Shown: one piece after another, positions 1,634 through 24,603 of the stretch
How positions within the stretch are numbered: the stretch's first letter is position 1
How the letters are laid out: the number at the start of each line of letters is the position of its first letter
Virus record (IMG/VR): IMGVR_UViG_3300003937_000140
Location: 1-32,051 of that record
Length of the DNA stretch: 32,051 nt
Strand: one strand, 5' to 3'
From: a virus
The notes under the pieces: generated by a model
Seen by the model: only the letters and a program-made list of their open reading frames with translations
What the model was told of the DNA's origin: nothing
Databases searched by the model: none
Program-made: the position numbers and the translations under genes

Positions 1634-1951
1634 ATGTATGATCGTAACGAGTTAATGATGTATAGAATGAAGGGTTCACCGCTGAAAAAGCAGAAATTAT
1701 CGCCTAAAGCCGCTAAGGATAAGGCAGAGCGTGACCTTCGGTATGCTAATTCTCCTGCTAGGAAGGCAAAACGGGCTGATTCGCAGGCACAAAGACGTGC
1801 TGCTAAGAAAAATGGCCGTGATGTAGCTGGTAAGGATTTCGATCATCGCACAAATAGCTTCGTAAGTGTCTCTACTAACCGTGGAAATCGTGGTGAGGGG
1901 ACAAAAAAGGAGGGAAGTGCCAATTATAAGGTAACACGTCGCAATGGCTAG
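1634..1951 (+). CDS. Small very basic protein with SPLKK motif, likely virion-associated
   Basis: The ATG at 1634 gives 105 residues starting MYDRNELMMYRMKGSPLKKQ; a GTG-initiated extension from 1607 is possible but less attractive. The protein is rich in Lys, Arg and Ala, with KAAKDKAERD and QAQRRAAKKNGRD segments, and ends in a Gly/Arg/Lys-rich tail. It carries SPLKK and SPARK, short motifs that recur in the cluster at 16628-18823. Its 3' end overlaps the next gene by 8 bases. Function is not established; a nucleic-acid-binding or packaged virion protein is inferred from charge and context. Confidence 0.6.
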   Translation: MYDRNELMMYRMKGSPLKKQKLSPKAAKDKAERDLRYANSPARKAKRADSQAQRRAAKKNGRDVAGKDFDHRTNSFVSVSTNRGNRGEGTKKEGSANYKVTRRNG

Positions 1952-14384: not shown

Positions 14385-15953
14385 ATGGAATTTAATAACC
14401 CTAGCGAGATTGTAAAGGATCTCACATTTGGCAATGCTGCCAATGAAAAAATTATGGCCGGCGTCAGTAAGTTAGCGAACGCAGTGAAGTCCACTTTAGG
14501 AGCTTCAGGTAAATGCGTGATCTACGAAGACGCCTTGGGCCGACCGGTCATCACTAAAGATGGTGTAACCGTAGCAGAAAGCGTAGTCTTGATGGATCCG
14601 GTCGAAAACATCGGTGCAACACTTGTTAAAGAGGCTGCCCGAAATACAGTGCGTGAAGCGGGTGACGGTACGACAACCTCAACCGTCCTCGCTCACTCAT
14701 TATTAAAAGAACTAAGTGAATTTACAAGTGATGACAAAATTAGAGAAATTAAAAAAGGCGTTGAAGACTGTGCTAAGGAGATCTTGGAATATCTTGATAC
14801 TACCAGTATTCCGGTTGATGGTGAAATGCTTAGGCAAGTTGCATACATTAGCACAAACAACGACGAAGAGCTTGGAGGCTTCATTGGTGAAGCTTTCGGC
14901 AAAGTTGGCAAAGATGGAGTCGTATTGATGGAAGAATCCGAAACGAACGAAACTTATGTGGAGTTTGTAGAGGGTACTCAATTTGATTCAGGTTTAAAGT
15001 CACCGCATCTTATAACGGATAAAGATAAGGGCATAGCTGTTTTAGACAATCCTATGGTCCTTATTGTGTCTTCGCCTATACCTAATATAAGAAAGATACA
15101 AAGTGTCTTAGAACACGTTGTAAAGAAGAATAGAAGCCTGCTGATCGTCGCTGACGTTGAGCAACAACCTTACCAAACGTTATTAGCTAACAAGGTAAAA
15201 GGCAATATCAAGGTAAACATAGTGGATTTACCTGGGTTTGGGCCAACTAAGCAGGAAGCAATCGAAGACTTAGCAATATTAACTGGGGCTACAGTCATTA
15301 ATGAAGAGCTTGGCGATGATTTGGATCTGATCAATCCCGAAGTGTTAGGAGAAGCGGTAAAATCCGTTACCTCTTCAAAGAACACTGTGATGCAGGTAGA
15401 GGCCGACCATGAGCAGCTTCTTGACCGTATTGAAAATGTACGTGAAAGAATTGGTTCTGAAACAAACCCTTACTTTAGGGGTAAGCTCGAAGAGCGTTTA
15501 TCAATGTTAACCGGTAAGGTTGGACTGATTTATGTAGGAGCTGACTCACAGGTCGAACTTAAAGAAAAGAAAGATAGAGTAGAAGATGCCATTTATGCAA
15601 CGCAAGCCGCGTTAAAAGAAGGTATTGTAGCAGGGGGTGGCGCAGCATTATTGCATGCATCATTAAAGATTAAACATAAGAATGTTGGATACACTGCTCT
15701 TCTTAGAGCTCTTAGTTCTCCGTTTAATACCATTCTTGAAAACGCAAATATTGTGCTCGACGAGCCGGTTGCACGTAAAGGTTATGGGATTGATGCTACT
15801 TCGGGGAAGAAAGTAAATATGGTTAAGGCTGGTATTATTGATCCGGTACTCGTAACCAAAACCGCACTAAAGAATGCAGTTAGTGTAGCAACAACAATTA
15901 TTTCTGCAGATTGTGTAATCTCTAATATGAGAATGGATGAAAGCGGTAAATAA
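14385..15953 (+). CDS. groL: Phage-encoded chaperonin GroEL (Hsp60)
   Basis: 522 residues, slightly shorter than the usual 540-550 because the Gly-Gly-Met tail is absent. Family signatures are all present: [11 protein letters not shown] (Asp59, matching Asp52 of E. coli GroEL), [14 protein letters not shown] (Asp94, matching Asp87), [20 protein letters not shown] (Asp401, matching the ATP-hydrolysis Asp398) and a [20 protein letters not shown] segment near the end. The ATPase site therefore looks intact. The apical region is more diverged ([16 protein letters not shown]). The 3' end overlaps groES by 17 bases. It probably folds phage proteins in the cytoplasm, either as its own ring or with host subunits. 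Confidence 0.95.
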
Positions 15954-16194
15954 TTATATTATTATAAAGAAAATCAAGGAGGCAGTCAAAAAGGTTGCCG
16001 GCCTTGAATTAACTGAAAAGCAGAATAGTGACGTTAGGTATTTAAAAGCTGAAGTTATTAGCTGCGGACCATTAGTAATCGGTGTTGAAGTTGGTGATAC
16101 AATTAGATACGATAAGCACGCTGGACATGGTATAGAATGGAATGAAGATTTATTTCATGTAATTACCGTAGGCGACGTTGTTATTGTAGAATGA
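15937..16194 (+). CDS. groS: Phage-encoded co-chaperonin GroES-like protein
   Basis: 85 residues, a little shorter than typical GroES. It opens [20 protein letters not shown] as GroES proteins do. A mobile-loop-like segment follows (VAGLELTEKQN), then a barrel strand pattern (AEVISCG, EVGDTIRYDKHAG) and the usual closing strand (EDLFHVITVGDVVIVE). The loop has LEL where GroES has the hydrophobic IVL-type tripeptide that docks on GroEL. It starts within the last codons of groEL and overlaps the next gene by four bases, so all three are probably coupled. It should cap the phage or host GroEL ring. Confidence 0.85.
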   Translation: MKAVNNYIIIKKIKEAVKKVAGLELTEKQNSDVRYLKAEVISCGPLVIGVEVGDTIRYDKHAGHGIEWNEDLFHVITVGDVVIVE

Positions 16195-16631
16195 GACTAA
16201 CACCCGCGGATTTACGCGATATGAATTTGTTTAAGTATTACAGGCTCGTTAGGAAATGGGCCTGTAAGACTTACGATATATTAGATGCTGACCTAGAGCT
16301 GCTGATATATCTTGATTGCAAAGAGCGTTTTACGCGTAATGATTTTATAGAAGGGTCATACACCTATGCATGGGATAAAAACCGCTGGGAAAGACTTAGA
16401 AATGATGGCTGGATTGATGTCTGGCGTCATCGGAATAGGACTACAATCAAATACAGTGTTTTCACAACATCACCTAAAGCTAAACGCTTGATTACACGCA
16501 TGTATCGAGTTATGCTTGGGGAAGAAGATTTACCAATCGGTAGATCAAGCAAATTTTACAAGAACAAGAGTTATACTGATAAAGTCTATAATAAAGCTAT
16601 AGACGATATGATTAAAGACAAAGAACGATGA
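16191..16631 (+). CDS. Winged-helix DNA-binding protein (MarR-like fold), putative regulator
   Basis: 146 residues. The order of elements fits a winged helix: helices at NLFKYYRLVRKWACKTY and ADLELLIYLDCKERF, a possible recognition region at AWDKNRWERLRNDGWI, then a beta wing (DVWRHRNRTTIKYSVF) and a long helix (SPKAKRLITRMYRVML). The C-terminus is basic. ATGA overlaps tie it to groES in front and to the following gene. A role in switching phage transcription is inferred from fold and place. A structural or packaging role for a DNA-binding protein embedded in the virion operon is the alternative. Confidence 0.55.
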   Translation: MRLTPADLRDMNLFKYYRLVRKWACKTYDILDADLELLIYLDCKERFTRNDFIEGSYTYAWDKNRWERLRNDGWIDVWRHRNRTTIKYSVFTTSPKAKRLITRMYRVMLGEEDLPIGRSSKFYKNKSYTDKVYNKAIDDMIKDKER

Positions 16632-17014
16632 AGCCAATTACTCACCAAGTTCAGCGTGCAAATGACGCTTCTCCTGTTAAGCAGACAAGAATAAAAAATG
16701 TTTTACAGAAAGGTAAGAATCTTGTAAATAGAAACAGTGAGCCTCAGGGTCCTGACTTTGGTAAGGCAGAAACGTTTAATGACTACAAGTCTATGGCGTC
16801 TACTTTTACGGATTTTAATAACAATACAGATACTGCGTTTACTCATACTTCACTTGATCCAGGTGCTGCAGAGCGCGGTACAAATCATTTTGCTAGAGTA
16901 TCCGCAAGTAAAGGATCGTCTTCTGCTTTTCCGGCAGAACAAAAAATGTATAGAACAACAAACGAGTCCGGTCAAGATCTTTATACTAGTGTTAAAAAAT
17001 ATAAAAAGAAATAA
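16628..17014 (+). CDS. Hypothetical protein with N-terminal PIT..RA..SPVK motif
   Basis: 128 residues, rich in Asn, Thr, Ser and Lys, likely flexible. The N-terminus MKPITHQVQRANDASPVKQT shares the order PIT, RA, SP-hydrophobic-KQ with the protein at 17521-18504 (MYNKPITQRAKSPLKQTTK). The C-terminus is basic (TSVKKYKKK). It has ATGA and TAATG junctions with its neighbours. I know no function. The shared N-terminal tag suggests these proteins are handled by the same partner, for example taken into the capsid together, but that is inference. Confidence 0.55.
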   Translation: MKPITHQVQRANDASPVKQTRIKNVLQKGKNLVNRNSEPQGPDFGKAETFNDYKSMASTFTDFNNNTDTAFTHTSLDPGAAERGTNHFARVSASKGSSSAFPAEQKMYRTTNESGQDLYTSVKKYKKK

Positions 17015-17169
17015 TGAAAAGTCACCTAGAGCCTATTACAAAGCGCGCAGTTACTGATTACGGTAAAGCGCCTGCAAATCAAGAAGTTACATTAGATGCC
17101 GCAGGTAAAAAGCGCGCAAACTTTACAAATGCGGGCGACTGCGGTTGTTCAGGAAAGTGTGATTGCTAA
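17014..17169 (+). CDS. Small protein with cysteine-rich C-terminus
   Basis: 51 residues starting MKSHLEPITKRAVTDYGKAP and ending GDCGCSGKCDC. The N-terminus has a PITKRA block like its neighbours but no SPxK. Four cysteines lie within the last nine residues (C-G-C-S-G-K-C-D-C), close enough to chelate a metal ion or form two disulfides. Its start and stop both overlap neighbouring genes as TAATG. Metal binding is inferred from cysteine spacing only; I cannot name a family. Confidence 0.5.
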   Translation: MKSHLEPITKRAVTDYGKAPANQEVTLDAAGKKRANFTNAGDCGCSGKCDC

Positions 17170-17516
17170 TGCCTTTTAAGCTTAAAGATAAGAGTACCCT
17201 GTTCGGTTACGATAAGCAAACTTCAACATTTGACACACCTGTATTTGAAAAAGACTTAGGTGATCAAGTGATGGCAGAAGCTAATCGTGACGGAACTATT
17301 TTTATTAATAAGGGTCTATCGCCAAAGCAAAAAGAAGATGCTATTGAGCATGAAAAAGTGCATTTAAATCAAATGCATCAAAATCGGTTAGATTACAACG
17401 AAAATGAAGTAATCTGGAAACGAGATACAAAGTCACCCATGAAAGTTTATAAAAGACAAGAGCTAAGCGAAGGCAATGCTAATCTTGAATGGGAAAACGA
17501 AGCATATAAATCATAA
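17169..17516 (+). CDS. Small HExxH-motif protein, putative zinc metallopeptidase-like
   Basis: 115 residues from the ATG at 17169, which overlaps the previous stop; an upstream TTG at 17163 is rejected. His61-Glu62-Lys63-Val64-His65 (in DAIEHEKVHLNQM) is an HExxH zinc motif preceded by a helix. A later LEWENEAY segment (Glu109 or Glu111) could supply a third ligand, as in gluzincin-like minimal domains. Between them lies a KSPMK motif like those of its neighbours. Phages carry similar short HExxH proteins of unclear activity. Peptidase function is plausible but not proven. Confidence 0.55.
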   Translation: MPFKLKDKSTLFGYDKQTSTFDTPVFEKDLGDQVMAEANRDGTIFINKGLSPKQKEDAIEHEKVHLNQMHQNRLDYNENEVIWKRDTKSPMKVYKRQELSEGNANLEWENEAYKS

Positions 17517-17520
17517 CATT

Positions 17521-18504
17521 ATGTATAATAAACCTATTACACAAAGAGCTAAGTCGCCTTTAAAACAAACAACGAAAGCCGTCAAAACAGAAGATGGGGG
17601 AACCTCACAAGTAACTAAAGTAATTGAAGTTGACGGAGAAGAAAAAACAGTTGATCAAGCTAAAGGTGGTAAGCAAGCTACCTCAGCAGGCGATTATTTA
17701 ACTAACCTGTCTACCTCAGATAGATTTAAAAATGTATCGGGAGCTGAAATGGCTAAAAAAGGTTATATATCTAGTGGGTATGCCGATAAGTGGAATGAAA
17801 TGACTAATTACGTTTCTCCTTCATCAACTAAAACCGTAGTTGAAACAGTAGATAACCCTGATAAAGAAATGGGCTTCACTCCTAAGGTTGAGGAAACAAG
17901 TACAAGAGTAGGCACTGTAGGGGACTATAGAAACAACTTAATGGTTAATCGTTCGGTTAATAGAAATGAAAACTTTGAAAGAAAACAAAACAGAAAGTTA
18001 GCCAAAGAGTATGCTCGCCAATCAGATGAAAAATCTGGTTTATTTGGTAACTATAAAGAGCGTCGCGATTTTATGAAGGGCAATGTTTCTAAAGATAAAA
18101 TTGTAAGTACGTTTGATGCACTAAACGAAAAAACAGGTGGTGCTACAGGCAGCGGCGCAGAAAAATTTGCACAATACAGCCAAAATTACGCTGCAAGCCG
18201 TGGGCTTAGTAAAGCTCAACAAGAAGCCTCAAAAGCTGGTGGAGTAGATAGATCTTTAGCACAATATGAACAAGGTGGTAATGAAAATGTTCGTCAGTTT
18301 AAAACTCTTGACAATAAGTATTTAGGCACTGCACGTGGTGATGATGCAGCTGATTTGATTGAAAATAGAACAGGTTATGAGATTAAGCCTGAAAATGAGT
18401 TTGAACGCGAAGTACCAGGTAGTGGTCTTCAAATGCGCTACAATCAAAACGTAGGCATTAAGAACTCTTCACCAATGAAAAAAGGATACTTTAAAGGTAA
18501 ATAG
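17521..18504 (+). CDS. Hypothetical virion-associated protein with SPxK motifs at both ends
   Basis: 327 residues from the ATG at 17521; an in-frame ATG at 17476 would overlap the previous gene by 41 bases and is less likely. The N-terminus has PITQRAKSPLKQ and the C-terminus has NSSPMKKGYFKGK, so the same kind of motif lies at each end. The middle is polar and probably helical (ENFERKQNRKLAKEYARQSD, SKAQQEASKAGG). No catalytic motif is seen. It is probably a structural or packaged protein, because it lies between small basic proteins and the terminase genes. Confidence 0.55.
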   Translation: MYNKPITQRAKSPLKQTTKAVKTEDGGTSQVTKVIEVDGEEKTVDQAKGGKQATSAGDYLTNLSTSDRFKNVSGAEMAKKGYISSGYADKWNEMTNYVSPSSTKTVVETVDNPDKEMGFTPKVEETSTRVGTVGDYRNNLMVNRSVNRNENFERKQNRKLAKEYARQSDEKSGLFGNYKERRDFMKGNVSKDKIVSTFDALNEKTGGATGSGAEKFAQYSQNYAASRGLSKAQQEASKAGGVDRSLAQYEQGGNENVRQFKTLDNKYLGTARGDDAADLIENRTGYEIKPENEFEREVPGSGLQMRYNQNVGIKNSSPMKKGYFKGK

Positions 18505-18505
18505 C

Positions 18506-18823
18506 ATGGCATACGTACAAAACAACTCACCTTTTAAGAAAAAAGGCGACGCACCATCGCGTAAAAAATCAGAAGGAAACTATGCTGCAGTCAAGAAAGG
18601 CGGCGGTACTGGTGGAGATGCTGGGGGTGGAATGACAAAAAAAGGCGTCGAAAAGTATAAAAAAGACAATCCAGGTAGTAAATTGCAGACAGCGGTAACT
18701 ACTCCGCCTTCAAAGTTGAAGCCTGGAAGTAAAGCTGCAAAGCGTCGTAAATCATTTTGCGCACGCTCTAAAAGCTGGACAAGTGAACGTGGTAAAGCAG
18801 CACGCCGTAAGTGGAACTGCTAA
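18506..18823 (+). CDS. Small basic protein with FCARS and KWNC motifs (DUF6321-like)
   Basis: 105 residues, very rich in Lys and Gly. It begins MAYVQNNSPFKKKGDAPSRK, which includes the SPxK motif. The C-terminal half (NPGSKLQTAV, then PGSKAAKRRKSFCARSKSW and a final KWNC) resembles a widespread small phage protein whose family I recall as DUF6321. Cys85 and Cys105 are the typical conserved cysteines. The function of this family is unknown to me. It starts one base after the previous stop. The strong positive charge suggests contact with DNA or an acidic protein surface. Confidence 0.65.
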   Translation: MAYVQNNSPFKKKGDAPSRKKSEGNYAAVKKGGGTGGDAGGGMTKKGVEKYKKDNPGSKLQTAVTTPPSKLKPGSKAAKRRKSFCARSKSWTSERGKAARRKWNC

Positions 18824-19148: not shown

Positions 19149-19316
19149 ATGCACTATTCTGTTGGACAGGAAGTGTATGGCGGTCATACCATAGTTAACA
19201 TATTAGAAGAGGAAGATAAGTACTCTGTCTATATTCAAAAAGGAGATCTAGTAATGCCATGGAAAGACTTTAACAAGAACATGGCTATCTCTATCGAATA
19301 TGATCTTAAGTGGTAA
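19149..19316 (+). CDS. Small hypothetical beta-rich protein (55 residues)
   Basis: I take the ATG at 19149, giving MHYSVGQEVYGGHTIVNILE. The same frame extends further upstream but would overlap the coiled-coil gene and read its DNA out of frame. The pattern of short strands and turns (KYSVYIQKGDLVMPWKDFNK) suggests a small barrel or SH3-like fold. Its stop overlaps the next ATG as TAATG, so it is coupled to the GroES-like protein. Function is unknown. Confidence 0.5.
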   Translation: MHYSVGQEVYGGHTIVNILEEEDKYSVYIQKGDLVMPWKDFNKNMAISIEYDLKW

Positions 19317-19906
19317 TGCAAAGCATATACAACTTTATGGTATCTCCGTATGCTAAGAGAACCACATCAGAAAAAGAAATAAATGGTGTAACGCTGTTGT
19401 TAAATACAGAATTACAAAACCATCTTTATACTAGCAGACACGGAGTAGTCAAAGCTATACCCAAAGTAAACGATTTAGGGTTACTTCCTGGTGATGAAGT
19501 TATTGTTCATCATAACGTCTTTAGAAGATTTAGAGATGTAAGAGGCGCTGAAAAGAACAGCCGCTCATATTACGAGGAGGATAAGTACTTCGTATACCCT
19601 GATCAGATATATGCGTTTAAACGTGATGGAGAATGGAAACCTGTAGCGGGTTTCATATTCGTTAAGCCTATGTTAGACGAGCGTATGTTTTCCGAACATA
19701 ACGAACTTCCTTTGATAGGAAAAGTTAAATACGCTTACGAAGGTTTTGAAAGTGGAGAGCTTATAGGGTTCACACCTGGTACAGAATACGAATTTAATAT
19801 TGAAGGGGAGAAGGTTTACCGTGTTCCCGCAAATCGAATTACAATCAAGTATGGACACCAAGCAAGCGAAAAAGAATATAATCCTAGCTGGTCGCAAAGC
19901 AGTTGA
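19316..19906 (+). CDS. Protein with two tandem GroES-like barrels (putative)
   Basis: 196 residues from the ATG that overlaps the previous stop; a GTG at 19310 is rejected. Residues 42-101 follow the GroES pattern: HGVVKAIPK, LLPGDEVIVHHNVFR and a closing KYFVYPDQIYAF. Residues 109-178 repeat it: PVAGFIFVKPM, IGKVKYAYEGF, FTPGTEYEFNIEGEKVYRVP and ANRITIKY. The order (strand, G-x-V, P-G-x-E-V, closing strand with an N/D-x-I turn) is the same in both halves. It may be a second co-chaperonin, or a barrel adapted to assembly or packaging, as it lies directly before the terminase genes. The fold call is inference. Confidence 0.5.
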   Translation: MQSIYNFMVSPYAKRTTSEKEINGVTLLLNTELQNHLYTSRHGVVKAIPKVNDLGLLPGDEVIVHHNVFRRFRDVRGAEKNSRSYYEEDKYFVYPDQIYAFKRDGEWKPVAGFIFVKPMLDERMFSEHNELPLIGKVKYAYEGFESGELIGFTPGTEYEFNIEGEKVYRVPANRITIKYGHQASEKEYNPSWSQSS

Positions 19907-20129
19907 GGAACTTATAAAGGTTGCGCAAGAAAAAATCATTACCAATACGGAAGATGATGTTTCTGCTGACCGCTTAAAAAATGCTGCTGCAACTAAAAAG
20001 TTAGCAATCTTTGACGCGTTTGAGATACTTACTCGCATCGAAGAGGAAGAACGCATACTTGAGAACAAACCGAAAGAAGAAAAAGAAAAGAAAACATTCT
20101 CAGGGTTTGCTGAAAAAAGATCTAGGTAA
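19851..20129 (+). CDS. Probable small terminase subunit
   Basis: 92 residues from the ATG at 19851; a TTG at 19800 is rejected. It overlaps the gene before it by 56 bases and the large terminase by one base. The sequence is mostly helical and charged (KKNIILAGRKAVEELIKVAQ, SADRLKNAAATKKLAIFDAF, and an EEEERILENKPKEEKEKK tail). Its place directly before the large subunit, its size and its helical nature fit a small terminase, which binds phage DNA and starts packaging. No diagnostic helix-turn-helix is obvious, so the call rests mainly on context. Confidence 0.55.
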   Translation: MDTKQAKKNIILAGRKAVEELIKVAQEKIITNTEDDVSADRLKNAAATKKLAIFDAFEILTRIEEEERILENKPKEEKEKKTFSGFAEKRSR

Positions 20130-22339
20130 TGTACGAGCAGAGTCTAGTAAAAGTTGTTGAGCCTGTAAAGCTTACAACAATCAGCAGATTAAATAGATCC
20201 AAGTCTTGGAAATATGGTTACAACAAGGAACACGATATAGTTGTTATCAGTAAGACTGGGCAGATAGGGCAAATACTAGAAGTGCAAAACTTGTGTATAG
20301 CATTGCCGCCAGCACCGAAAGGATTAACTAAAGGCTTAGATAAATGGGCTGTTCAAGAGTATCCTAAGGAGCTTAAAAGAATCAAGAGTATATTCGATTG
20401 GCAAACCTATCCAGATGAGTTTAAGAGCAATTGGGAGGGATACATTGATGAAGAATTCAACAGACGTGATGGTGGTTACTGGTTTTATAACAAGGGGACT
20501 CCTACTTATATCACTGGGACTCATTACATGTACTTGCAGTGGAGTAAGATTGATGTCGGTAATCCCGACTACCGTGAAGCAAACAGACTCTTCTTTATAT
20601 TTTGGGAAGCCTGTAAAGCCGATACAAGAAGCTACGGAATGTGCTATCTTAAGAACAGACGGAGTGGATTCTCATTTATGGCTTCAGGAGAAACAGTCAA
20701 CTTGGCGACCATCTCCAGTGACGCCAGATTTGGTATACTATCAAAGTCAGGTAGTGATGCCAAAAAAATGTTTACCGATAAAGTTGTACCGATATCCGTT
20801 AACTACCCGTTTTTCTTCAAACCTATACAAGATGGTATGGATAGACCGAAGACTGAACTGGCATATAGGGTTCCTGCTTCTAAGCTAACCCGTAAATCAA
20901 TTCAGGCAAAAGAAAAGCAAATAGAGCTTGAGGGTCTTGATACAACTATTGACTGGAAGAATACAGGAGACAACTCTTATGATGGTGAAAAGTTAAAGCT
21001 TTTAGTGCATGACGAGAGCGGTAAATGGGAAAGACCGGATAACATATTAAACAACTGGCGGGTTACAAAAACTACGTTACGTTTAGGAGCTAGAATTATA
21101 GGCAAATGTTTAATGGGTTCAACATCGAATTCATTAGATAAAGGGGGCGAGAACTTCAAGAAGTTATATAATGACTCTGACGTAAGTAAAAGAAACTCGA
21201 ATGGTCAAACAAAATCCGGGTTATATTCACTCTTTATACCGATGGAGTGGAACTACGAAGGGTTTATTGATCAGTATGGACAACCAGTATTTAATACCCC
21301 TGAAGAAAAAGTATTAGATCCTTTTGGTGATACTATTGAACAAGGAGTTATAGATTACTGGAACAATGAAGTTGAAGGTCTTAAGCAAGACCAAGACGGG
21401 TTAAACGAATATTACCGCCAGTTTCCGCGTACAGAAGAGCACGCATTTAGAGATGAAACAAAAAATAGTTTGTTTAATCTTGCAAAAATATACGAACAGG
21501 TTGATTATAATGAAGATCTGCGTAATACTAATGTTGTAACCACTGGCAATTTTCAGTGGGTTAACGGTGTGAAAGATACAAAAGTTGTGTTTATGCCAAC
21601 TCCTCAGGGAAGATTTAAAGTGTCCTGGATACCAGGAGCTGAACTTCAGAACAGGCAAATCACAAAAAATGGTGTTAAATACCCGGGCAATGAACACGTC
21701 GGCGCATTTGGTTGCGATAGTTACGACATATCAGGAACTACCGACGGCAAAGGTTCAAAAGGAGCTTTACACGGGCTCACTAAGTTTACTATGGAAGATG
21801 CACCGCCAAGTTCGTTCTTCCTTGAATATATAGCCAGACCACAAACCGCTGAAATATTTTTTGAAGATGTATTAATGGCATGTGTATTTTATGGTATGCC
21901 TATACTAGCAGAGAATAACAAACCTAGGTTGCTTTATCATTTTAAGCGCCGCGGTTACAGAGGATACTCTATGAACCGACCGGATAGACTTTGGAACAAG
22001 CTATCAGTAACGGAAAAAGAAATTGGTGGTGTTCCTAACTCGAGCGAGGATATGAAACAAGCACACGCTGCCGCAATTGAAATGTACGTAGATAAGTACG
22101 TAGGTTTAATGGAAGACGGGCAGTATGGCAACATGTACTTTAACGAAACACTGAATGACTGGTCTAAGTTTGATATAAACAAACGTACTAAATATGATGC
22201 CGCGATAAGTTCAGGCTTAGCAATAATGGCATGTAACAAAGAGCTGTATAGGCCAGTAGGTAAATTAGAAAGAACAAAGTTGAATATAAAGATTTCAAAA
22301 TTCCGTCAAGAGGGTTTGAGTTCAGAAATAATAAAATAA
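20129..22339 (+). CDS. terL: Terminase large subunit
   Basis: 736 residues; it packages DNA by ATP hydrolysis and cuts it at the portal. An atypical Walker A-like stretch is at residues 175-183 (KNRRSGFSF), a Walker B at 289-296 (LKLLVHDE, with Asp295 and Glu296), and a coupling-type motif at 329-340 (MGSTSNSLDKGG). The nuclease half begins near Asp530 in GAFGCDSYDISG. The N-terminal extension of about 170 residues, with GYWFYNKGTPTYITGTHYMY, resembles large terminases of crAss-like and uncultured marine phages. The start overlaps the previous stop as TAATG. Confidence 0.85.
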   Translation: MYEQSLVKVVEPVKLTTISRLNRSKSWKYGYNKEHDIVVISKTGQIGQILEVQNLCIALPPAPKGLTKGLDKWAVQEYPKELKRIKSIFDWQTYPDEFKSNWEGYIDEEFNRRDGGYWFYNKGTPTYITGTHYMYLQWSKIDVGNPDYREANRLFFIFWEACKADTRSYGMCYLKNRRSGFSFMASGETVNLATISSDARFGILSKSGSDAKKMFTDKVVPISVNYPFFFKPIQDGMDRPKTELAYRVPASKLTRKSIQAKEKQIELEGLDTTIDWKNTGDNSYDGEKLKLLVHDESGKWERPDNILNNWRVTKTTLRLGARIIGKCLMGSTSNSLDKGGENFKKLYNDSDVSKRNSNGQTKSGLYSLFIPMEWNYEGFIDQYGQPVFNTPEEKVLDPFGDTIEQGVIDYWNNEVEGLKQDQDGLNEYYRQFPRTEEHAFRDETKNSLFNLAKIYEQVDYNEDLRNTNVVTTGNFQWVNGVKDTKVVFMPTPQGRFKVSWIPGAELQNRQITKNGVKYPGNEHVGAFGCDSYDISGTTDGKGSKGALHGLTKFTMEDAPPSSFFLEYIARPQTAEIFFEDVLMACVFYGMPILAENNKPRLLYHFKRRGYRGYSMNRPDRLWNKLSVTEKEIGGVPNSSEDMKQAHAAAIEMYVDKYVGLMEDGQYGNMYFNETLNDWSKFDINKRTKYDAAISSGLAIMACNKELYRPVGKLERTKLNIKISKFRQEGLSSEIIK

Positions 22340-22342
22340 TTT

Positions 22343-24028
22343 ATGGTTAAGTCGGTTTCAAATAGCGCTTTCCCCAGCCAAATAGCTAGCGATGCTGAAA
22401 AGATGTCGCAGGAGTATGGGTTGCAAGTAGGTAGAGCTATTCAAAACGAATGGTTCTCGAGTAATTCGGGTACTACTCGTTTCAGAAGCAACCAAAATAC
22501 GTTTCATAACCTGAGATTGTATGCGCGTGGTGAGCAAAGCGTTCAGAAATATAAAGATGAGCTATCTGTTAATGGTGATTTGTCTTACTTAAACCTTGAC
22601 TGGAAGCCGGTACCTATCTTATCTAAATTTGTAGATATTGTAGTTAACGGCATTGCAGATCGTTCTTTTGATTTAAAAGCATATTCACAAGACCCATATG
22701 GCGTAAGCAAACGCACAAAGTATATGGAATCTATTATACGTGACTTGCAAACAAAAGAATTAAATGAGTTTGCACAGCAAGCCTTCGGAATGAATCTTTT
22801 TGAAAACAGCCCAGAGCAGTTACCAGATTCTAAAGAAGAGCTTGAATTGCACATGCAACTAAGCTATAAGCAAGGAGTTGAAATTGCCGAAGAAGTAGCT
22901 ATCAATACTTTACTTGATGGCAACCATTACGATCTAACTAAGAAGCGCCTTTATTACGATCTTACAACTTTAGGGGTTGCAGCAGTCAAAAATAGCTTTA
23001 GCCAATCAGAAGGGGTAACGGTAGACTATGTTGATCCAGCTTACCTGGTACACTCTTATAGTGAGTCTCCTTACTTCGAAGACATATATTATGTAGGTGA
23101 AGTAAAGTTTGTACCGCTAAACGAGCTTAAAAAGCAATTTCCTGATTTAGATGAAGCACAGCTAGATAAAATACAGAAGCAAGGAACAAAAAATCATAGT
23201 GCTGGATACGATCAGTCATTAGTAAATCATGACGTTCGCGACAACAATGTGGTGCAGGTATTATACTTTAACTATAAGACGTACATGAACGAAGTGTATA
23301 AGGTTAAAGAAACTGCTACTGGTGCTTCTAAAATTATAGTAAGAGACGATCAGTTTGATCCTCCTGTAGAATTGCTAGAAGCTGAGTTTGGTAAAATGGC
23401 CCGCTCGCTAGAAGTATTGTATGAGGGTGTACTTATATTAGGTACTGACATCATGCTTAAGTGGGAAATGGCTAAAAATATGATGCGCCCTAAGAGCGAT
23501 TACGCTAAGGTTAAGATGAACTACAGCATCGTGGCGCCACGTATGTATAAGGGTAAGATTGAATCTATTGTAAGCCGTTGTACTGGTTTTGCTGATATGA
23601 TACAGCTTACGCATTTAAAAATGCAGCAGGTATTACAAAGAATGATGCCCGATGGTGTATACATGGATGCTGATGGCTTGGCCGAAATAGATTTAGGTAA
23701 CGGTACAAATTACAACCCGCAAGAGGCACTTAACATGTTCTTCCAGACGGGTTCTGTTATTGGCCGTTCGTTTACTAGTGAAGGTGACATGAACCCTGGT
23801 AAGGTGCCAATTCAGCCATTACAAACCGGTGCGGGTGGTCAAAAGCTACAAACTCTTATACAAACATACAACTATTACCTGCAGATGATTCGTGATGTAA
23901 CGGGTCTTAATGAAGCTCGTGATGGTTCTTCACCTGATTCAAGAGCATTAGTAGGTGTGCAAAAAATGGCAGCTGCAAATTCTAATACAGCAACGCGCCA
24001 TATATTAGATGCTTTGGTATTTCTTTAG
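22343..24028 (+). CDS. Portal protein, N-terminal part of a broken gene
   Basis: 561 residues. It resembles long portal proteins of crAss-like or marine phages, with a late signature RDVTGLNEARDGSSPDSRAL followed by VGVQKMAAANSNTATRHI. In the family the portal forms the dodecameric channel at the capsid vertex through which DNA passes. The frame stops five codons after ATRHILDA, in the middle of what should be a helical region. The expected C-terminal part begins in another frame at about 24013, apparently after loss of some tens of codons. The gene starts three bases after the terminase stop. The product as read here would probably not form a working portal. Confidence 0.75.
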   Translation: MVKSVSNSAFPSQIASDAEKMSQEYGLQVGRAIQNEWFSSNSGTTRFRSNQNTFHNLRLYARGEQSVQKYKDELSVNGDLSYLNLDWKPVPILSKFVDIVVNGIADRSFDLKAYSQDPYGVSKRTKYMESIIRDLQTKELNEFAQQAFGMNLFENSPEQLPDSKEELELHMQLSYKQGVEIAEEVAINTLLDGNHYDLTKKRLYYDLTTLGVAAVKNSFSQSEGVTVDYVDPAYLVHSYSESPYFEDIYYVGEVKFVPLNELKKQFPDLDEAQLDKIQKQGTKNHSAGYDQSLVNHDVRDNNVVQVLYFNYKTYMNEVYKVKETATGASKIIVRDDQFDPPVELLEAEFGKMARSLEVLYEGVLILGTDIMLKWEMAKNMMRPKSDYAKVKMNYSIVAPRMYKGKIESIVSRCTGFADMIQLTHLKMQQVLQRMMPDGVYMDADGLAEIDLGNGTNYNPQEALNMFFQTGSVIGRSFTSEGDMNPGKVPIQPLQTGAGGQKLQTLIQTYNYYLQMIRDVTGLNEARDGSSPDSRALVGVQKMAAANSNTATRHILDALVFL

Positions 24029-24603
24029 AGCTATCCCCGGATGAAGAAGAAAAATCGCTTTTAGAAAACAACATTCAAACAGCTTTATCCGCTGGGCTTA
24101 TAGACTTAGACGATGCTATTGATATCCGCGAAGTTAAAAACTTAAAGCTAGCTAACCAATTATTGAAGCTACGCCGTAAGAAAAAGCAAGAGCGGGATCA
24201 AATGATGCAGCAGCAGAATATGCAAGCGCAAGCCCAGGCAAACGCACAAGCACAACAAGTTGCAGCTCAAGCAGAAATGCAAAAAGATCAAGCGGCTCTG
24301 CAAACAAAAACACAGCTAGAGCAAGTTAAAGCGCAATTAGAGCAAGCTAGAATTGATAAAGAGCAATTAATGGCACTTGAGTTTCAATATAACATGAAGT
24401 TGAAGGGGCTGGAAGTAGATGCAGCAAAAACCAAAATCTCTGAAACTGAAGACCGCAAAGACAAAAGAACCAAAATACAAGCTACGCAACAAAGCGAACT
24501 TATAGACCAAAGACAAAAAGGCGGAGCGCCTAAAGACTTCGAATCCTCTGGTAATGATATACTTGGCGGTGGATTTGGTTTAGGAAGCTTCGAACCTAGG
24601 TAA
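24013..24603 (+). CDS. Portal protein, C-terminal fragment (different frame)
   Basis: The frame is open from about 23986, and the part that looks like portal starts FGISLELSPDEEEKSLLENN and continues AGLIDLDDAIDIREVKNLKL and ANQLLKLRRKKKQERDQ. These are the closing helices I associate with long portals. A Gln/Ala-rich helical tail follows (QAQAQANAQAQQVAAQAEMQ), and the end is Gly-rich (GNDILGGGFGLGSFEPR). There is no good start codon near the beginning; the first in-frame ATG is at 24202. I therefore treat it as the rest of the portal gene and not as an independent gene. Confidence 0.65.
   Translation, partial: FGISLELSPDEEEKSLLENNIQTALSAGLIDLDDAIDIREVKNLKLANQLLKLRRKKKQERDQMMQQQNMQAQAQANAQAQQVAAQAEMQKDQAALQTKTQLEQVKAQLEQARIDKEQLMALEFQYNMKLKGLEVDAAKTKISETEDRKDKRTKIQATQQSELIDQRQKGGAPKDFESSGNDILGGGFGLGSFEPR

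Follow-up and report, generated by a model that had tools for sequence, protein, structure and literature searches.

Zincin-like domains are described as the commonest peptidases in phage polyvalent proteins, where they typically lie close to late genes; their proposed task is to process their own or packaged proteins (PMC5512222). In that account, these metallopeptidase (MPTase) domains share a core of a three-stranded sheet, a HExxH helix, and a C-terminal helix with a zinc-ligand glutamate, and have variable inserts between the two helices. Comparable cellular enzymes, the minigluzincins abylysin (4jiu) and selecase MJ1213 (4qhf–4qhj), have chains of 105–110 residues. As a system of tagged late proteins, the internal proteins of phage T4 are reported to be diverse and to have a conserved capsid-targeting sequence alone in common (PMC3012670).

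The window, that is, the whole virus record of 32,051 bases analysed here, encodes a 115-residue protein. Judging from sequence conservation and a predicted fold, this is very probably a zinc peptidase of a compact gluzincin type that falls in none of the named Pfam families. Comparison with the described systems revealed that (i) the protein is similar in size to the minigluzincins, which differ in being archaeal cellular proteins in which the tag described below is not known; (ii) its top structural matches are IrrE/PprI (peptidase M78), yet these are larger proteins, as are SprT/SPRTN/Wss1 (WLM), with which it has a link through the cyanophage match of a remote Melnitz relative annotated "WLM protease domain protein"; (iii) its gene lies near late genes like those of the phage MPTases, but it stands alone, whereas the MPTases of polyvalent proteins are fused to effector domains, and its insert, unlike theirs, is a short hairpin with a tag common to its neighbours (PMC5512222); and (iv) a conserved short tag on late proteins that otherwise differ, accompanied by a protease, recalls the T4 capsid-targeting sequence (PMC3012670). 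The SPxK tag differs from the T4 sequence in its sites, which include N-termini, C-termini, linkers, and the hairpin. The head protease of T4 belongs to the serine enzymes (PMC7824862), whereas the one here is a predicted metallopeptidase. The protein would work like the compact zincins, namely the minigluzincins and phage MPTases; the tag system beside it is possibly new. The reading we favour, with a probability of roughly 40%, is that this predicted enzyme is co-sorted with, and perhaps acts on, tagged late proteins; we infer both its activity and the function of the tag.

The putative peptidase gene and its genomic setting

An earlier note on this DNA had described a 115-residue ORF with HEKVH, WENEA, and SPMK, and the translation reads exactly so. 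The features of the gene are listed below.

17169..17516, + strand: putative gluzincin-type zinc metallopeptidase, a compact HExxH protein of 115 residues (ORF, 175 distinct relatives, dN/dS, predicted fold)
17349..17363, + strand: HEKVH, residues 61–65, with H61 and H65 as predicted zinc ligands and E62 as predicted general base (conservation, model helix 52–70)
17433..17444, + strand: SPMK, residues 89–92, at the tip of β-hairpin 80–83/92–95, a lineage-specific insert with the shared tag (DSSP of the model)
17490..17504, + strand: WENEA, residues 108–112, with E109 as predicted third zinc ligand (conservation, C-terminal model helix 107–114)

H61 begins at base 17349 and S89 at base 17433. 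By itself the HExxH motif is at about chance level, because a six-frame search of the window found another such string (minus strand, 29086, in a stop-broken frame); the weight of the motif rests on its conservation. Three further features define the setting of the gene.

14385..16194, + strand: GroEL and GroES, the usual upstream neighbours of the peptidase gene (translations)
17014..17169, + strand: 51-residue ORF with a cysteine-rich C-terminus (sequence, length)
20129..22339, + strand: terminase large subunit, the fixed downstream landmark (phrog_6681, E = 7.6e-166)

The relatives were divided into two groups by a loose label for the hairpin loop, under which 10 of the 115 "loop+" proteins have their SP/TP string elsewhere, and a strict recount was made (below). 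Under the loose label, the groups comprise 125 and 65 distinct loci; GroEL is upstream of the peptidase in 95 and 34 of them, and the terminase is downstream in 119 and 61. The stop codon of the 51-residue ORF overlaps the peptidase start (TAATG), and translational coupling of the two genes is therefore likely. This ORF begins with MKSHLEPIT, like the tagged neighbours, but without SPxK, and it ends in a cysteine-rich CxCxxxCxC tail; some relatives have small proteins in which SPxK precedes the cysteines (clusters 18 and 115).

The host of the virus is likely flavobacterial, because the terminase and portal of the window, with 87 matching records each among 50,697 phage records, match phages of Flavobacterium, Cellulophaga, Tenacibaculum, and Maribacter, and one uncultured record. 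The portal ORF (22343–24028) encodes 561 residues, and a downstream ORF (24163–24603) matches the C-terminal part of the portal PHROG (phrog_6547, 683–824); related phage records have one longer portal gene, and the two ORFs of the window reflect a genuine division of the gene or else a break in the sequence. A second GroES-like protein is encoded near the terminase (19310–19906, phrog_13932), besides the GroEL/GroES genes.

Conservation and predicted fold of the putative peptidase

An iterated profile gave 277 hits in 278 stretches, corresponding to 175 distinct proteins. The stretches came from viral-contig scans (57 loci; the best 80 of at least 530 matches; the best 80 of 92; and 74; some contigs were fetched twice) and contain repeats of the same contig, and our counts use distinct sequences. 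In this unfiltered set, H61 is kept in 171 of the 175 relatives, E62 and H65 in 173 each, Y76 in 174, and W108 and E109 in 173. HExxH is absent in four proteins: L140 and L286, which are pieces or frame-broken, and the full-length L131 and L139, which form one lineage with glutamate in place of the first histidine. Loss of the histidines in homologues, which the earlier note had named as a refutation, is confined among full-length proteins to this one lineage and there to the first histidine. That lineage retains the WE pair and a hairpin SPAR despite its substituted histidine. The gene is under purifying selection, because dN/dS is 0.08–0.14 against six length-matched relatives (dS is saturated in two). 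A second alignment (A2) holds 168 distinct proteins with HExxH and at least 98 residues, thinned to 83 at 90% identity; the invariance of HExxH in it is by construction.

The family is widespread in viral metagenomes, in which one scan found at least 530 stretches encoding a relative, and it is unnamed. With the window protein, Pfam gave no family at E ≤ 1, NCBIfam one chance-level match only, and a sequence search of the PDB three weak hits, all to one unrelated protein; the phage collection searched contained no close relative, and four Melnitz records alone were hit, remotely. A genome scan with profile A1 found 86 stretches fitting the pattern, none of which encodes a relative, and no host homologue was seen by this route. 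Among the 83 members of A2, weak Pfam matches are most often to metallopeptidase families (DUF6782 in 39, M91 in 18, and M78 in 12, the last with a best E of 0.0057); the window protein does not match peptidase M78 (IrrE/ImmA) even at E ≤ 1. At E ≤ 0.01, 69 of the 83 members match phrog_16532 and 66 match phrog_10499, both with no known function, and 27 match phrog_87, which is named metallo-protease and spans residues 35–81 only of the window protein. Searches of open-licence PMC papers found none on the peptidase or the tag.

An AlphaFold2 model built from the 83 sequences (pLDDT 81, pTM 0.68) has strands at residues 74–76, 80–83, and 92–95, a helix (52–70) that bears HExxH, and a later helix (107–114) that bears E109. 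Foldseek matches to solved structures were weak, with none at 0.001 and a best E of 0.18; the first five rows were PprI, IrrE, abylysin, an unrelated viral chain, and selecase. In VIA-align, the first four entries were IrrE/PprI (Z 6.0–4.8), matching residues 15–115, with 80 residues of 8sln aligned at 3.4 Å (Z 6.0). The fifth entry was the DNA–protein-crosslink repair protease 6mdx (Z 4.7), which we take to be SPRTN. Further down were M. tuberculosis regulator entries (Z 4.6), abylysin (4jiu, Z 4.0), Wss1 (Z 3.7), and the selecase entries (Z 3.4–3.1), with unrelated folds from Z of about 3.5 downward; Z below 8 is middling according to the tool's own note. Selecase MJ1213 also gave a profile match (E 0.06, profile positions 16–66), which is not significant. 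Among viral models, two matched below 0.001; both are uncharacterised proteins, one from an uncultured virus and the other from Tenacibaculum phage pT24. Other phage proteins came next, a part of them named SprT-like or IrrE-like.

We find the fold reading persuasive, because metallopeptidases top the VIA-align list, which agrees with what the motif and its conservation indicate. The minimal zinc-peptidase core that the earlier note saw in 115 residues is backed by this conservation and by the predicted fold, which has the HExxH helix and the later helix with E109 and for which metallopeptidases head the matches to solved structures. Motif, conservation, and predicted fold together make catalysis by the zincin mechanism highly probable; H61, H65, and E109 would hold zinc, and E62 would activate water for peptide-bond cleavage. 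That the protein binds zinc in a structural or regulatory role, catalysis having been lost, would suit its very small size and the missing first histidine of the L131/L139 lineage. The near-universal retention of E62, which is no zinc ligand in such sites, makes such a loss very improbable.

The prominence of IrrE/PprI among the structural matches also suits a host-directed peptidase (IrrE/ImmA-like or SprT-like), made in or injected into the host, that would cut a host or defence protein and have no link to the tag. An account of jumbo phages describes patchily distributed SprT-like and ArdC-like peptidases that are proposed to target host proteins (PMC7824862). Set against the steady synteny with the terminase, and against the SP tag that 105 of the 175 peptidases themselves carry like their late neighbours, a host-directed role is less probable than co-sorting, though a serious alternative to it.

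A short tag on the putative peptidase and on neighbouring late proteins

The other tagged proteins of the window are listed below.

1634..1951, + strand: 105-residue tagged protein outside the cluster, with SPLK and SPAR (cluster 36, 7 of 9 members tagged)
16628..17014, + strand: 128-residue tagged neighbour, with SPVK at residue 15 (sequence)
17521..18504, + strand: 327-residue tagged neighbour, with SPLK near the N-terminus and SPMK near the C-terminus (alignment A3, model)
18506..18823, + strand: 105-residue DUF6321 protein, extended at its N-terminus, where SPFK lies at residue 8 (Pfam)

The earlier note had remarked that the peptidase shares a tag with its neighbours, and such strings are enriched beyond chance both in the window and around relatives. 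The window contains 7 SP[LMFVIAY][KR] strings in 5 ORFs, the peptidase included, versus 0.73 by shuffling. In 1457 distinct ORFs from 131 stretches and the window, 420 tags were found versus 32 by shuffling, a count that includes the peptidases and counts homologues many times. When the peptidase was excluded, about 6 kb around the 115 loop-bearing loci (loose label) contained 388 tags versus 36.8 expected, an approximately tenfold excess, and the 60 other loci contained 62 versus 21.2. In the strict recount of well-flanked loci, a tagged neighbour was present at 67 of the 73 hairpin loci (mean 4.03 tags) and at 26 of the 40 loci without the hairpin tag (mean 1.15 tags). Seven related phage records that lack the peptidase, among them one uncultured record, contained 3 tags versus 6.5 expected in stretches of 26–34 kb, with no enrichment.

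The tag is a conserved short string that recurs on several late proteins which, apart from it, are divergent or unrelated. Fourteen of the 99 clusters with at least three members are majority-tagged, one of them being the peptidase itself, and the control strings PS, TP, SA, and NP gave 0, 1, 4, and 0 such clusters. A motif count free of presets, with one sequence per cluster, ranked PAKQ, SPAK, PKSP, TPIT, and SP.K among the first 25 motifs for loop-bearing loci, SP.K occurring in 17 of 96 clusters versus 4.0 expected; none of the five is in the top 25 of the other group (86 clusters). The tagged clusters are not all independent: hhalign of four pairs showed that two pairs share stretches and one shares 16 columns. 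Within the selected tags, the third position is alanine in 51%, followed by M, F, and L (partly by construction), the fourth is lysine in 95% of neighbours, and the residue after the lysine is glutamine in 32%, 8.8 times the background.

The tagged neighbours differ in how the tag is placed. The 128-residue protein has no family match. The 327-residue protein, for which the start at 17521 was chosen (the mechanical ORF starts at 17476), was aligned with its relatives in A3, which holds 10 of the 11 cluster members; L009, whose ORF begins later, was omitted. It shares 25–62% identity with nine relatives, with large length changes and a divergent middle between near-invariant ends. At the start, PITQ-x-AK and the S, P, and K of the tag are invariant (SPLK in 9 of 10, SPFK in L010); at the end, NVG and MKKGYFKG are invariant, and the C-terminal tag is SPMK in 5 of 10 and TPMK, APMK, or SAMK in the others. 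Both tails are predicted to be disordered, with pLDDT below 50 at residues 1–39 and 290–327 bar one residue, in a low-confidence model (mean pLDDT 53). The DUF6321 protein matches its Pfam family over residues 38–94 (E 2.9e-11) and has matches in 45 phage records, mostly of cyanophages and pelagiphages. Its tagged N-terminus looks like an add-on, because none of the matches in the 40 of 45 records listed begins before residue 48.

Directly upstream of the peptidase, several relatives, among them L047, L043, and L104, have a gene bearing 4–6 SPAK-type tags. The shared tag that runs through the late ORFs (1634–1951 and 16628–18823) is possibly more interesting than the peptidase itself.

The hairpin copy of the tag

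The SPMK that the earlier note had pointed out in the peptidase is real in the window, but it is not general among relatives. The tag on the hairpin is SPAR in 88 of the 105 proteins that have one, SPMK in 7, SPAK in 4, TPAR in 3, and a single form in each of three others, and 70 of the 175 proteins have none. In the deep relatives L055–L057, it is absent and the turn is shorter. On a FastTree tree built without the hairpin columns, presence of the hairpin tag changes once, and the joint occurrence of hairpin tag and tagged neighbours therefore carries no independent weight; SPMK versus other hairpin forms changes three times, to which recombination may contribute. An independent-pairs test of hairpin against neighbour tags had too few pairs, with 5 changes under the loose label and 1 under the strict label.

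The fourth position of the hairpin string is arginine in most peptidases where the neighbours have lysine, and the string may thus be a feature of the hairpin and not the same tag. The peptidase of L233 lacks the hairpin tag but has SPIK at residue 12. In the L196 peptidase, SPIK at residue 42 takes the place of the SPDK of its relatives, from which we conclude that chance SPxK strings occur in the family.

The tag could also be a cleavage site, the peptidase cutting its neighbours between SP and the hydrophobic residue, with the hairpin copy as an autoprocessing or pseudosubstrate site. The preference for A, M, F, and L at the third position, partly a product of how the tags were selected, resembles the P1' preference of thermolysin-like gluzincins. 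Against this reading, such enzymes seldom cut after a proline at P1. The gene upstream of the peptidase carries at least two and up to six tags in 15 of the 165 relatives whose upstream gene was found, as in a multi-site precursor. L139, in which the first histidine is lost, has no tagged neighbours (L131 is cut short downstream), but 6 of the 78 loop-bearing loci with good flanks (loose label) have no tagged neighbour and 5 of these have an intact HExxH; as a link between tag and protease, this dead-enzyme lineage is weak for that reason. Peptidases without the hairpin also keep HExxH though the tags near them are fewer. On balance, a cleavage site is less probable than a sorting tag, though a serious alternative to it.

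Head maturation and lysis as improbable roles

The earlier note had suggested that the peptidase processes the capsid or scaffold during maturation. The late position of the gene would suit a head-maturation protease, and HK97-type prohead proteases (PF04586, Peptidase_S78) were found in none of 27 records with or without the peptidase, a search that covered the HK97 type only and included many fragments, and in which four controls rang. Zincin-like metallopeptidases have been suggested in the maturation cleavage of some jumbo phages (PMC7824862). The comparison with related phages speaks against such processing here. The peptidase gene is missing, at E up to 1, from seven phage records whose terminase and portal are homologous to those of the window, and on repetition of this search the positive controls (four contigs and the remote Melnitz protein) rang. 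In five of the seven, the capsid protein begins within 5–9 residues of the start in the window. A match of the portal to the P22 type lies below cut-off, and heads of that type are not known to need a protease for maturation. A general role of the peptidase in head maturation is unlikely, because those seven records lack it, and we give cleavage of the capsid or scaffold as such little credence.

Three related records have M15-type or amidase endolysins upstream of the terminase, a position that would allow the peptidase to be a replacement endolysin cutting peptidoglycan. Among 25 peptidase-bearing contigs picked by length, however, 22 encode a separate endolysin (M15_3 in 19, one with an internal stop, and Amidase_2 in 3 others). 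We rejected the endolysin identity on this ground and regard it as hardly tenable.

A proposed sorting of tagged late proteins

A sorting tag with a co-sorted processor or cargo fits the locus, because unrelated or fast-changing late proteins have conserved tagged ends beside a tagged peptidase. According to this favoured explanation, the peptidase would belong to a set of late-region proteins with a short SP-hydrophobic-K tag, often placed on terminal tails or extensions, and would display its own copy on the hairpin tip. The tag would most likely be a sorting or docking signal that gathers unrelated proteins at one place, and our best guess for this place is the prohead interior, by comparison with the capsid-targeting sequence of the T4 internal proteins. 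Once gathered, the peptidase may trim or release the tagged proteins, or may enter the host as an internal protein.

Co-sorting is favoured by (i) the conservation of the catalytic residues and the predicted fold; (ii) the tag enrichment; (iii) the near-invariant, predicted disordered tails of the 327-residue neighbour; (iv) the tagged DUF6321 extension outside the matches to other phages; and (v) the SPIK at residue 12 of the L233 peptidase. Against it stand the weak Foldseek E-values and middling Z; the arginine of the hairpin versus the lysine of the neighbours; the 70 of 175 relatives without a hairpin tag; the six well-flanked loop-bearing loci without a tagged neighbour, together with some tags at hairpin-less loci; the single hairpin change on the tree; the dependence among tag clusters; and the C-terminal SPMK in only 5 of 10 relatives. 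Described phage MPTases bear on it in both directions: P1 DdrB is likely autoprocessed before packaging, which counts for co-sorting, whereas the N4 virion RNA polymerase undergoes packaging without being processed despite its MPTase domain, which counts against it (PMC5512222).

More tentatively, SP-hydrophobic-K might be the sorting code of a large group of marine phages, uncultured and probably flavobacterial, whose late proteins, varying from phage to phage, would be processed or accompanied by a dedicated, tagged zinc peptidase of 115 residues. Such a code would mark N-termini, C-termini, linkers, and repeats for the same compartment. If so, the tag and the peptidase would form a system for capsid cargo or co-recruitment whose evolution was separate from that of the T4 capsid-targeting sequence and in which a metallopeptidase replaces the serine protease. 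Should the tag signal packaging or processing, it would provide a sequence handle for predicting which unknown proteins these marine phages bring into the virion or process there, and the locus would offer a small tag-plus-protease pair.

The start of the peptidase itself, M[AP]FKLK, is resembled by the starts of the small tagged proteins of cluster 96 (L233 and L239), which read MAFKM or MAYKM. MAFK occurs in 6 of 96 clusters versus 0.15 expected, a count that may include the peptidase cluster itself.
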